Shown here piece after piece: positions 2,745 through 37,769 of a DNA stretch of 38,783 nt. The notes beneath the pieces were generated by a model, which made no database searches, had not been told where the DNA came from, and worked only from the letters and a program-made list of their open reading frames with translations. The position numbers and the translations under genes were made by a program. The DNA is from an uncultured Actinomycetes bacterium. GTDB lineage: Bacteria; Actinomycetota; Actinomycetes; Nanopelagicales; Nanopelagicaceae. Positions within the stretch are counted from its first letter, which is position 1; every line of letters begins with the position of its first letter. Location: the NCBI GenBank assembly GCA_903825015.1, contig CAIJYZ010000021.1, positions 1 through 38,783 on the forward strand, in the 5' to 3' direction.

Positions 2745-5094
<2,350 letters not shown>

Positions 5095-5206
5095 TTTGAC
5101 TCCTAGTGGCTTGGTGTAAATCTCTATAAGCGAGTGCTTCGTTGAACCGTCTAGAGGCTTACGGCCAATCCTCTCACTTTGGCCCGAATCCCACAAAAAG
5201 GGCGCG

Positions 5207-5237
5207 AAAAAGCCCCTGATTCGGGTGGACCAGGGGC
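5207..5237 (-). terminator. Intrinsic terminator after the 35-codon gene, upstream of fba
   Basis: Read on the minus strand, GCCCCTG and CAGGGGC form a perfect 7-bp GC-rich stem around a 12-nt loop, followed by TTTTT. It lies 16 nt after the stop of the small ORF. A second GGGC/GCCC hairpin with its own TTTTT follows directly. CCCGAATC in the first loop can instead pair with GATTCGGG at 5183-5190. The layout suits either simple termination or attenuation of transcription into fba. Confidence 0.75.
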
Positions 5238-5253
5238 GATTTCGCTCAATTGA

Positions 5254-5361
5254 CTACATGAACGTCTTAAAGACCGAGCCGGCAAAACGGAACAAGGCTG
5301 CGACCAATGTGGCATTGCCGAAGAACTTAAACATCAGCAATAAAACAGATGAAAATCCCAT
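5254..5361 (-). CDS. Small hydrophobic peptide of 35 aa (unrecognised)
   Basis: I do not recognise a family. The peptide is [20 protein letters not shown] followed by [15 protein letters not shown]. It is strongly hydrophobic with a few Lys/Arg residues, so it could be one membrane-spanning or membrane-binding helix. The evidence for translation is the near-perfect ribosome-binding site AAAGGAGGT six bases before the ATG, the best in the window. An intrinsic terminator lies 16 nt after the stop. The ORF track shows only a 68-aa version starting from a poor upstream codon. It is divergent from acs. Possible roles such as a membrane regulatory peptide or an assembly subunit are speculation. Confidence 0.7.
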
Positions 5362-5384
5362 ATGTGACCTCCTTTCCTTTGGCA

Positions 5385-5410
5385 TTCTCAAGGGCCTCAC
5401 GATGTGAGAA
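5385..5410 (-). promoter_or_regulatory. Alternative hairpins in the leader of the 35-codon gene
   Basis: Between acs and the small gene, TTCTCA (5385-5390) can pair with TGAGAA (5405-5410). A nested alternative pairs CTCAC (5396-5400) with GTGAG (5404-5408). On the minus strand the two structures would be exclusive and lie just upstream of the strong ribosome-binding site. This is visible pairing only, and a regulatory role is inferred. Confidence 0.3.
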
Positions 5411-5465
5411 CCACCCCTTTCAAAACTCTGTTGATAACTGGCTCTGGCAGGTAACCTCACTCGTT

Positions 5466-7427
5466 ATGAGCCAATCCCATGAGTCTTTGGAAAACCTATT
5501 AACCGAGGATCGACATTTCTCGCCTAGCCCAGAGTTTGCCGCCGAAGCTAATGCCCAATTTGATGAATATGCCCATGCAAATATGGATCGATTGGCATTT
5601 TGGGATGAGCAAGCAAAATCTCTGCAATGGGAAAAACTATGGAGTCAAACTTTGGATTGGCAACCTCCATATGCCAAATGGTTTATCGGTGGAAAGTTAA
5701 ATGCTTCTGTTAATGCTCTAGATCGCCACGTCGCTGAAGGTCGCGGTAACCGTGTGGCATTTCATTTTGAAGGCGAACCTGGTGACACACAAACTATTAC
5801 ATACGCGCAAATGCTCACTGAGGTTAAGAAAACCGCAAATGCATTAATCGAACTTGGAATTAAAGCTGGCGATCGAGTTGCGATTTATATGCCGATGATT
5901 CCGGAGGCTGCTATTGCAATGTTGGCTTGCGCTCGAATTGGTGCGCCGCACTCTGTTGTCTTCGGAGGTTTTTCTGCTGATGCATTGTTATCTCGAATTC
6001 AAGATGCCGATGCAAAGTTAGTGATAACAGCTGATGGGGGATTTAGAAAAGGTGCTGCTTTTGCATTAAAGCCAGCGGTCGATGAAGCGTTAAAAGGTCA
6101 ACACAATGTTGAAAAAGTTTTAGTTGTACAACGAACTAAACAAGAAACTGCATGGAGTGATCGTGATATTTGGTGGCACGACATTGTTGGTCGTCAATCC
6201 GAAGAACACATTGCAGAAAGCTTTGACTCGGAGCACCCACTATTTATTTTGTATACTTCGGGCACAACTGCAAAACCAAAAGGTATTTTTCACACTACTG
6301 GCGGTTATTTAACGCAGGTCGCTTACACCCACAAAATGGTCTTTGATATAAAGCCAGAAACCGATGTTTATTGGTGCACCGCCGATGTTGGCTGGGTAAC
6401 CGGTCATTCATACATTGTTTATGGCCCACTAATTAATGGTGCTACACAGGTGATGTACGAAGGAACGCCTGATACTCCCCATAAAGGACGTATCTTTGAG
6501 ATCATCGAAAAATACGGCGTAACTATCTTGTACACCGCGCCAACATTAATTCGAACATGGATGAAATGGGGCGATGAGTTTCCTAAAGCTCATAATCTGC
6601 AATCACTTCGTTTGTTGGGATCGGTCGGTGAACCAATTAACCCTGAAGCGTGGATGTGGTACCGAGAGATTATTGGTGGAGATCGTTGCCCAATCGTTGA
6701 CACATGGTGGCAAACTGAAACTGGTGCAATCATGATTTCCCCATTGCCTGGTATCACTGCAACAAAACCAGGATCCGCAATGCGCCCAATTCCTGGAATC
6801 AGTGCCAAAGTTGTTGATGACAATGCCAAGCCTGTTGCTGATGGGCATGGTGGATATTTGATTCTTGATCAACCTTGGCCATCAATGCTTCGAGGAATTT
6901 GGGGCGAGGATGAGCGTTACAAAGAAACATATTGGTCACGCTTTGAAGGAATTTATTTTGCTGGTGACGGCGCAAAATTAGATGATGAAGGTGCGGTCTG
7001 GTTATTAGGCCGCGTCGATGATGTCATGAATGTTTCTGGCCACCGAATTTCAACTACTGAAGTTGAATCAGCACTTGTTTCTCATGAATCAGTTGCAGAA
7101 GCTGCCGTTGTCGGTGCTGCGGATCCAATGACTGGCCAGGGAATTGTTGCCTTCGTTATTTTGCGCGGCGGCGTCGAACATGCATCTGGCGAAGAGTTGA
7201 TAACTCAACTTCGCAACCACGTAGCAAAGGAAATTGGCGCAATTGCAAAACCCCGTCAGATTTTGGTTGTTAACGAACTTCCAAAGACTCGAAGCGGAAA
7301 AATTATGCGTCGACTTCTCAAAGATGTTGCTGAAGATCGTGTCGTTGGAGATGCCACAACGTTGGCTGATCCAAATGTCATGAAGTTAATTTTTGAGGGA
7401 TTGCAAAGCGCAAAAGCTGAGGATTAA
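5466..7427 (+). CDS. acs: Acetyl-CoA synthetase (AMP-forming)
   Basis: The 653-aa protein activates acetate to acetyl-CoA through acetyl-AMP. Motifs in order are '[11 protein letters not shown]' (AMP/phosphate loop), 'WWQTETG' (adenylate site), '[16 protein letters not shown]' (hinge) and '[12 protein letters not shown]', whose Lys is the residue reversibly acetylated in this family. The ORF track begins 39 codons earlier. I choose the ATG at 5466 because family length (about 650 aa) and N-terminal sequence fit there. No clear Shine-Dalgarno is present. A TTGATA / TAACCT pair ends 8 nt before the ATG, so a leaderless transcript is possible. The stop overlaps the convergent thioredoxin-like gene by 4 nt. 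Confidence 0.95.
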
Positions 7428-7948
7428 AGCTTTACCCCTAGATATTTAGAGGTCAAAGTAATCAGTTCTATCTCGTTTTTCAGCACGCCAATATGTTTAT
7501 AAACCACGCTTCCATCAGCGTCTATAAACCATGTAACTGGAACGCCCATTCCAAAATATGCCCGAGATTTTCCATCGGCATCAAAGAGATTAGGCCATGT
7601 AATGCCGTTTTCTTGGACAAAGGTGCGACCATCTTTAATCGAGGCCTCTTCAACATCTATGCCTATAAGGGCGACCTTATTTGTAGCTTTTTTATAGAAG
7701 GACCGAAGGATCGGCATCTCTTCTTTGCATGGTCCACACCAAGATCCCCATACATTAATTATCGCCGGCCCTTTAATGCCTTCGAATGATGCACCAGTTG
7801 TTCCATCCAAACACGCTAAATATGTTGAGTTTTTATTTGTAAGATTCGTAATGCTTGAGCAAGAAACAATTTGGCCTTGAGTTTTTGCAGTAGATGTTGA
7901 GCAGCCCGTAAGCAGCATTAATGCAATTGCAATAGCCAGCTTCTTCAT
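7424..7948 (-). CDS. TlpA/ResA-like thioredoxin-fold lipoprotein
   Basis: This 174-aa protein has a lipoprotein signal peptide ending in the lipobox 'LLTGC' (Cys about residue 16), so it is probably anchored outside the cytoplasmic membrane. The thioredoxin-like domain carries '[13 protein letters not shown]' with the CxxC redox pair, plus a cis-proline region '[10 protein letters not shown]'. The family reduces or delivers disulfides to exported proteins, often apocytochrome c or copper-site proteins. The start overlaps the nth stop as ATGA. The TlpA-nth pair next to crp is also found in mycobacteria, as I recall. The specific partner is unknown. Confidence 0.88.
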
Positions 7949-8643
7949 CGGAAATCCTTATCTGTCTTAACCAACAACTTTGCTTTAGTTACATCCATTT
8001 CACCGATGCCAACGCTAGGGCATAGTTTTGCGATTGGACATGCGCCACATGCAGGTTTGCGAGAGTGGCAGATTCGTCGGCCATGCCAAATCATCCGTTG
8101 CGACAAATTTGTCCACTCTTTTTGCGGAATTAACTCTCCAACAATGCGTTCAACTTTTACTGGATCTGTTTCTTTAGTCCAACCAAAGCGGCGCGATAAA
8201 CGACCAAAGTGCGTATCAACAGTTATTCCAGGAATATCAAATGCATGTCCCAAAACTACATTTGCAGTTTTGCGACCAACTCCAGGCAATATAATTAGCT
8301 CATCCAATGTACGAGGCACTTGCCCATCAAACTCTGTAAAAAGCTTGACCCCTATCCCCCTTATGTGACGGGCTTTTGCCCGATAGAAACCAGTCTGATA
8401 CACCAGCTCTTCAAGATCGTGGATGTCAGCTTCTGCGTAAGACTTAGCAGTCTTGTATCTCTTAAACAGCGCTGGAGTTACAGTGTTAACTCTCTTATCT
8501 GTGCACTGTGCGCTCAAAACAGTGGCAACAATTAATTGGAGCGGATTCTCGAAATCTAATTCGCAACGGATCTCAGGGTAGGTCTTAGTCAAGATCCGAT
8601 AAATAGCCCGTGCCGCTTTGCGGCTTTCATTATCGGCAGGCAT
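7945..8643 (-). CDS. nth: Endonuclease III (DNA glycosylase/AP lyase)
   Basis: This 232-aa base-excision-repair enzyme removes oxidised pyrimidines. The helix-hairpin-helix '[12 protein letters not shown]' contains the catalytic Lys, and the conserved Asp is in '[11 protein letters not shown]'. The [4Fe-4S] ligands form the C-x6-C-x2-C-x5-C pattern in '[17 protein letters not shown]'. The chosen ATG (8643) is only 18 nt from the divergent crp GTG and has no ribosome-binding site. TACTTT lies 6 nt upstream, which suggests a leaderless mRNA. It is coupled by ATGA to the downstream TlpA-like gene. Confidence 0.95.
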
Positions 8644-8661
8644 GACGCTAAAGTACTACCC
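8644..8661. promoter_or_regulatory. 18-bp divergent nth/crp promoter with back-to-back -10 elements
   Basis: The whole intergenic space is GACGCTAAAGTACTACCC. TAAAGT (8649-8654) fits TANNNT for crp and ends 7 nt before its GTG. On the other strand TACTTT (8650-8655) fits TANNNT for nth and ends 6 nt before its ATG. Both transcripts would then start at or next to the start codon. The -35 regions would lie inside the opposing coding sequences. The spacing is seen directly, and promoter activity is inferred. Confidence 0.5.
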
Positions 8662-9345
8662 GTGACCATAGATCTAGATGCAGTTAATAAAGCCCCACTA
8701 TTCACGGCCCTTGATGAGGCAGCTTCTGCTTCGCTTCGCGCGAAGATGGATACAGTCAAAATCTCAAAAGGCAGCGTTCTCTTTGCCGAAGGCGCCGAAG
8801 GCGATCACCTTTACGTAATCGTTGAAGGAAAGTTAAAGCTTGGAACCTCAAGCGGTGATGGTCGCGAAAATCTTCTTTCAATCCTTGGACCTGGCGAAAT
8901 GTTTGGCGAACTCAGCCTCTTCGATCCAGGCCCACGTACTTCAACTGCAACGGCAGTTACTGATGCAAAACTATTAAGCCTTGGTCAGGAAAAACTTCTT
9001 CCATGGCTTCGCGAAAATCCAGATGTCTCACTTCAACTATTAGCACGTTTGGCTCAACGCCTTCGTCGTACAAATGAAGCTGTTGGCGATTTAGTCTTCT
9101 CAGATGTCCCAGGTCGCGTTGCTAAAGCACTTATCGATCTAGGTGAGCGCTTCGGAAAGAAGACCGATGAAGGTTTATACGTACATCATGATTTAACACA
9201 GGAAGAGCTTGCTCAACTTGTTGGCGCATCTCGCGAAACAGTAAACAAAGCCCTTGCAGATTTTGCAGGACGCAACTGGTTAAAGCTTGATGGACGTGCA
9301 GTATTGATTACAGATTTCGAACGTCTATCAAAACGCGGTAAATGA
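8662..9345 (+). CDS. crp: Crp/Fnr-family cAMP-receptor-type regulator (GlxR/Crp-like)
   Basis: The 227-aa protein has an N-terminal cyclic-nucleotide domain, with 'GDHLYVIVEGKLKLG' and the phosphate-binding cassette 'GEMFGELSLFDPGPRTSTA'. The C-terminal winged helix has the recognition region 'LTQEELAQLVGASRETVNKALADF'. It closely resembles mycobacterial Crp and corynebacterial GlxR, global regulators of carbon metabolism and respiration. The 'FGELS' and 'GPRTS' signatures favour real cAMP binding. The GTG start has no ribosome-binding site and is probably leaderless. It could control acs and pck in this window, but I found no clean TGTGA-N6-TCACA site upstream of either. Confidence 0.92.
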   Translation: MTIDLDAVNKAPLFTALDEAASASLRAKMDTVKISKGSVLFAEGAEGDHLYVIVEGKLKLGTSSGDGRENLLSILGPGEMFGELSLFDPGPRTSTATAVTDAKLLSLGQEKLLPWLRENPDVSLQLLARLAQRLRRTNEAVGDLVFSDVPGRVAKALIDLGERFGKKTDEGLYVHHDLTQEELAQLVGASRETVNKALADFAGRNWLKLDGRAVLITDFERLSKRGK

Positions 9346-15562: not shown

Positions 15563-15598
15563 ATTCTCTTCTCTACTCTTCGACGCGACAATTAAATA

Positions 15599-15690
15599 GG
15601 ACCCCTCGCACACCCGCCAGAGCGGACCTACCCTTGCTGCATTCCTGCCCTGGGGGAGTTCGGTACGGTGACGCCGTACGAGGGATCTGG
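15599..15690 (-). ncRNA. ffs: Signal recognition particle RNA (small bacterial 4.5S type)
   Basis: On the minus strand the conserved apical core reads CAGGGCAGGAATGCAGCAAG, the Ffh-binding GGAA tetraloop region with the asymmetric AGCA side, followed by GGTAGGTCC and the 3' strand GCTCTGGCGGGTGTGCGAGGGG. The ends pair as GATCCCTCG with CGAGGGGTC. The ACTCCCCCAGGGC/GCTCTGGCGGG layout resembles other actinobacterial SRP RNAs. The 5' strand contains an extra local hairpin GTACGG-CGTCA-CCGTAC. SRP RNA upstream of dnaX is a known actinobacterial arrangement. Boundaries are approximate to a few bases. Confidence 0.88.
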
Positions 15691-37510: not shown

Positions 37511-37570
37511 CAGTGAAGATCGGGGTTTAACTACCTAAGAATTAACAGGTAGGGTTAGCCTGCTTCACTG
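37511..37570 (+). other. Two-tier inverted repeat between E2 and tRNA-Ser
   Basis: CAGTGAAG directly after the E2 stop is the exact inverse of CTTCACTG, which ends at the first base of the tRNA. Nested inside, CTACCT (37531-37536) pairs with AGGTAG (37547-37552). There is no T-tract, so it is a poor intrinsic terminator. It could be a processing or structural element, but function is unknown. Confidence 0.4.
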
Positions 37571-37657
37571 GAGGATTCGCATAGCGGCCGAGTGCGCACG
37601 CTTGGAAAGCGTGTATAGGGCAACCTATCGAGGGTTCAAATCCCTCATCCTCCGCCA
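37570..37657 (+). tRNA. tRNA-Ser (anticodon GGA)
   Basis: The 88-nt sequence has a GGAGGAT/ATCCTCC acceptor stem. The anticodon arm CACGCTTGGAAAGCGTG carries GGA, and a long variable arm (TATAGGGCAACCTA) is typical of serine tRNA. The T arm is GAGGGTTCAAATCCCTC and CCA is encoded. It reads UCC and UCU codons. Confidence 0.96.
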
Positions 37658-37683
37658 GATCGGAAGTATCGCTTTCCCTTCTT

Positions 37684-37769
37684 GGAGGATTCGCATAGTG
37701 GCCGAGTGCGCGCGTCTCGAACACGCGTAGACGAAAGTCTCGAGGGTTCAAATCCCTCATCCTCCGCCA
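37684..37769 (+). tRNA. tRNA-Ser (anticodon CGA)
   Basis: The 86-nt tRNA has the same acceptor and T arms as its neighbour, anticodon CGA in CGCGTCTCGAACACGCG, a long variable arm (TAGACGAAAGTCTC) and encoded CCA. It reads UCG codons. Its 3' end is directly followed by the ORFs of a likely integrated element. Confidence 0.96.

Follow-up and report, generated by a model that had tools for sequence, protein, structure and literature searches.

The window, as we call the whole stretch of DNA that was analyzed (38,783 nucleotides), comes from a genome whose genus we take to be Planktophila-like. We studied a 35-codon open reading frame between acs and fba. It sits on the minus strand (5361..5254), which the first-pass annotation had not stated, and the features around it are:

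4060..5094, minus strand: fba, class II fructose-bisphosphate aldolase; downstream of the peptide gene on the same strand and beyond its terminator, with GTG at 5094; an inconstant partner
5207..5237, minus strand: the peptide gene's intrinsic terminator, made up of a stem-loop (5237..5212) and T5
5254..5361, minus strand: peptide gene, 35 aa (ATG 5361..5359, TAG 5256..5254), supported by homologues and dN/dS
5375..5367, minus strand: Shine-Dalgarno sequence AAAGGAGGT, 5 nt (CACAT) from the peptide ATG, or 6 nt if AAAGGAGG is counted
5384..5389, minus strand: putative -10 of the peptide promoter, GAGAAT (xARRAT in relatives), from conservation
5431..5436, plus strand: putative -35 of acs, TTGATA, from conservation
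5452..5457, plus strand: putative -10 of acs, TAACCT/TAATCT, 8 nt ahead of the start codon, from conservation
5466..7427, plus strand: acs, acetyl-CoA synthetase, with ATG at 5466; the divergent neighbour and constant partner

Beyond acs (window 7424..9345) lie a gene for a thioredoxin-fold (ResA-like) protein, nth and a gene for a CRP-family regulator. Elsewhere in the window are a bacterial small SRP RNA (15594..15690, minus strand; Rfam RF00169, 63.2 bits) and two tandem tRNA-Ser genes with GGA and CGA anticodons (37570..37769, plus strand).

The Shine-Dalgarno sequence does stand close before the ATG of a hydrophobic 35-codon frame, as first described, and most relatives retain it in the form AAAGGAGG or AAAGGAG. 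The window has a single instance of the pattern AAAGGAGG-N4-9-ATG against 0.22 expected, and 21 of 100 shuffled sequences contain it at least once, so that the Shine-Dalgarno sequence by itself is weak evidence and not decisive. The remark that the signals of this small gene are better than those of its large neighbours is fair, since acs has no Shine-Dalgarno sequence and fba has only AGGAG ahead of its GTG. The terminator hairpin, GCCCCTGGTCC-ACCC-GAATCAGGGGC followed by TTTTT, begins 16 nt past the peptide stop. Its stem has nine pairs, six of them G-C, and the outer seven are perfect, which is the 7-bp stem with T5 noticed before; the fold is far better than that of shuffled sequences (z = -4.4). 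Terminator-like hairpins were found 3' of 55 of the 70 distinct type A genes, with 47 different stem sequences. Judged from this comparison, the pairing is maintained despite changes of sequence. No Rfam RNA family matched at the peptide locus, and the gene is most likely monocistronic.

An automatic promoter scan found none of the promoters listed above, whose elements were assigned from conservation. In the region of window positions 5431..5465, the element TTATCAACAG, on the strand opposite acs, is nearly invariant across the genus. The putative -10 of acs lies so close to the ATG that the acs mRNA is probably leaderless. On the other side, a strongly conserved block, AAGTGAGAGGATTGGCCGTAAGCCTCTAGACGG, lies upstream of fba just past the terminator (window 5095..5185, minus strand) and is partly kept even in L188, which has lost the peptide gene; since Rfam gave no match to it and its fold is not unusual, it is probably promoter DNA of fba.

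To assess the coding status of the frame, we compared it with 135 genomes of the genus. A search with the single sequence (E <= 0.001) returned relatives in 22 of them. With a profile of 38 sequences, the peptide was found in 113 of the 135, a count that omits one marginal match within a 352-aa frame (E = 0.009), and likewise in a sister genus (19 genomes) and a third genus (one genome). As some profile rows were drawn from these same genomes, the counts enumerate the membership and are no blind test of the family. Many genomes in the comparison set are incomplete. Almost all members of the genus carry one copy per genome, at one fixed locus. The dN/dS ratio was about 0.16 for 14 distinct close sequences, 0.07 for a second group of 13 and 0.08 for a third group of 9. 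Variable sites by codon position numbered 14, 7 and 31 of 35 in the first group, and Lys12 was invariant in all 38 aligned peptide sequences. Frameshifts in relatives, or conservation of the RNA and not of the codons, had been named as observations that would speak against the gene; neither was seen, and the codons are under purifying selection (dN/dS 0.07-0.16). A chance ORF is ruled out by dN/dS together with the homologues in 113 of 135 genomes. Judged by its pattern of substitution, the ORF is a real protein-coding gene under purifying selection, and it combines the two marks of a small-protein gene, a frame under amino-acid selection and a conserved initiation signal.

The family was not recognized in any collection searched. 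The window sequence had no match in Pfam or NCBIfam, in line with the earlier statement that no family is known for it. The 38 relatives gave nothing significant against Pfam (best E = 0.012, to DUF5326), the PDB gave no match, and open literature searches returned nothing on the gene. The family appears to be new, within a well-known kind, the small membrane proteins of bacteria.

An AlphaFold2 model of the peptide contains two helices (residues 3-15 and 17-34) separated by a hinge at N16, with a mean pLDDT of 81. The net charge is +3 and the second helix is clearly amphipathic; the mean hydrophobic moment was equalled by only 29 of 2000 shuffled sequences. The first-pass annotation had proposed a membrane peptide. 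The hydrophobicity, the hydrophobic moment and the modeled helices make a membrane peptide likely, but probably not one with a single spanning helix: a predicted amphipathic helix pair lying on the membrane surface is likely the better fit.

Next to acs, the peptide gene is always divergent, with some 100-170 nt between it and the acs start; in those members of the genus where the distance was measured, it lies approximately 100-145 nt upstream of acs and on the other strand. We found acs in 116 of the 135 genomes. The peptide is present at 109 of the 113 acs loci with upstream sequence, a count that omits three genomes (G019, G110 and G123) in which the 5' end of acs is absent from the contig. 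Four genomes keep acs without the peptide (G014, G028, G080 and G093); the acs-fba gap is short in G014, G080 and G093, and G028 matches the G014 sequence up to the end of its contig. Four others (G106, G116, G133 and G153) have the peptide without an acs match, and there the contig stops at the locus or close to it.

Other genera of the family carry, at the same site, ORFs that are alike in style and different in sequence: 36-56 aa long, hydrophobic, mostly cationic and often preceded by a Shine-Dalgarno sequence. These types (B, 48-56 aa; C, 45 aa; D, 39-40 aa; E, 46 aa; F, 36 aa) were picked by position, Shine-Dalgarno sequence and hydrophobicity, and their reality rests on recurrence among related genomes and not on a homology test. 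Comparison of profiles gave weak similarity between A and D (P = 0.0007) and perhaps between A and B (P = 0.004), and no detectable similarity between A and C or between A and E. A single origin of all subtypes is possible on these profiles. The AlphaFold2 model of type B, of low confidence, has two helices, one long and one short.

The linkage to acs is constant, divergent in the genus and in the further genera alike, while the gene on the other side of the peptide may be class II fba, class I aldolase or purA. Because this downstream gene varies while the peptide ORF stays by acs, gene order indicates that the partner of the peptide is acs, or acetate, and not fba. The suggestion of a tie to sugar metabolism, made from the position next to fba, is accordingly not borne out. 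Inertia could account for some of the linkage, since the genus conserves the acs-fba neighbourhood in any case. Four genera in which acs has a different neighbourhood yielded no such ORF. A differing neighbourhood with no peptide found was seen in L031, L196-L199, L203-L204 and in L193, L210, L212 and L218; in these peptide-less genera either a HAD/phosphatase-like gene precedes acs or there is a divergent protein of ~225-245 aa. As the peptide has been lost from four acs-keeping genomes of the genus and has no equivalent in four genera, Acs does not need it. No change in the Acs N-terminus was seen to accompany its loss.

One genus includes eight genomes (L213, L215, L221, L224, L225, L226, L228 and L237) in which a gene for a SatP/YaaH acetate permease (PF01184) lies between acs and the type B peptide, in the order acs-satP-peptide-fba. 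The idea of a link to acetate, first put forward from the position beside acs, is strengthened by this arrangement and by the constant acs linkage across genera. SatP itself was found in only 21 of 296 genomes of the family, and none was seen in the window's genome. Although it adjoins acs and the peptide in those eight genomes, SatP differs from the peptide in being a multi-pass carrier of about 180 aa. We also considered homology to SatP from a loose likeness of N-P-A-L to its N-P-A-P-L-G motif and do not count it as evidence. In L215, satP occupies 770-1318 on the minus strand and is followed by a strong hairpin. Some distant actinobacteria (L043, L057, L058, L062 and L072; Streptomyces and Nocardioides among them) carry a satP-like gene on the acs strand, immediately 5' of acs.

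Purifying selection, the acs linkage, the satP association, the amphipathic hinged helices and the kept terminator pairing lead us to propose, tentatively, that the peptide is a lineage-specific small protein of the membrane surface, co-regulated with acs, that assists or tunes the uptake or activation of acetate. In this scheme, whose membrane location, promoters, co-regulation and acetate action we all infer, the cationic two-helix protein would lie on the inner face of the cytoplasmic membrane. Its promoter would face away from that of acs, and both would probably be regulated together. The peptide would act as an accessory or regulatory factor of acetate assimilation: it may help acetate to enter or to be trapped at the membrane, or it may tune Acs or an acetate carrier. 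KdpF, CydX, AcrZ and the like are small membrane protein regulators or subunits encoded beside their partner. The window peptide is similar to them in having fewer than 50 aa, in being hydrophobic with few charges, in its place beside a metabolic or transport gene and in being under purifying selection. It is unlike them in that no sequence relation was found, and in being an amphipathic helix pair with its own divergent transcription unit.

Alternatively, the peptide might act on the membrane in general or under stress, with a YohP- or TisB-like effect on membrane potential or fluidity, and its place beside acs would be inherited gene order. The helices are amphipathic, cationic and hinged, and their amphipathic character stays while the sequence varies strongly between genera, both of which agree with such a role. 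There is also a precedent in E. coli YohP, a 27-aa small membrane protein that reduces the membrane potential and brings about down-regulation of many metabolic enzymes (PMC12719787). Both proteins are very small, hydrophobic and of membrane type; YohP, however, is tied to starvation and stress (PMC12719787), whereas the window peptide is predicted to form two hinged helices and is encoded beside acs. A general modulator is somewhat unlikely to be the answer, given that the peptide stays by acs through swaps of the downstream gene and that satP joins them in one genus. It is also distinctly doubtful that the peptide belongs, as a small accessory protein, to another membrane complex with no tie to acetate and is kept at its site by the stable gene order of streamlined genomes. 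The acs-fba order is indeed conserved in the genus regardless, but the adjacency to acs survives rearrangement of the other side.

The size, the charge and the hinged amphipathic helices, together with the fast change of sequence between genera, would also suit a membrane-active peptide directed against other cells or a type I toxin (bacteriocin-like or TA-like). We think this improbable. The gene is single-copy at one fixed locus in almost all members of the genus, no export or immunity gene lies nearby, and the immediate neighbours are acs and fba, purA or aldolase. TisB-like type I toxins resemble the peptide in length and in having an amphipathic cationic helix, but the peptide gene is a fixed single copy across the genus and its Shine-Dalgarno sequence is not notably sequestered: a 49-nt fold was no more structured than shuffled sequences (z = +0.95), which disfavors a type I toxin in particular. 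A scan of viral contigs revealed no relative, and on that scan we likewise rejected a phage origin. Finally, a short ORF with a strong Shine-Dalgarno sequence, followed by a terminator and then by fba on the same strand, is what a leader peptide for attenuation of fba would look like, but this reading is hardly credible, as it is contradicted by the inconstant downstream gene (class II fba, class I aldolase or purA) and by conservation of amino acids rather than codons, and as the terminator keeps its stem and not its stem sequence and the conserved block before fba, beyond the terminator, looks like fba's own promoter.

A role in acetate assimilation therefore remains the reading that we favor. 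A more speculative extension, about which we are rather skeptical, is that such a small protein arose within this freshwater actinobacterial family and split there into six or more sequence subtypes at the one acs-divergent site, as a lineage-specific membrane adaptor or regulator with which cells mostly without SatP would collect very dilute acetate. The host group is among the most abundant bacteria of lakes and has highly streamlined genomes. In such genomes, a gene of no known family that almost every species of the genus retains must earn its place. If the peptide does act on acetate, it would offer a direct genetic handle on the use of a key carbon source present at low levels, and small proteins would be a missed layer of streamlined genomes.
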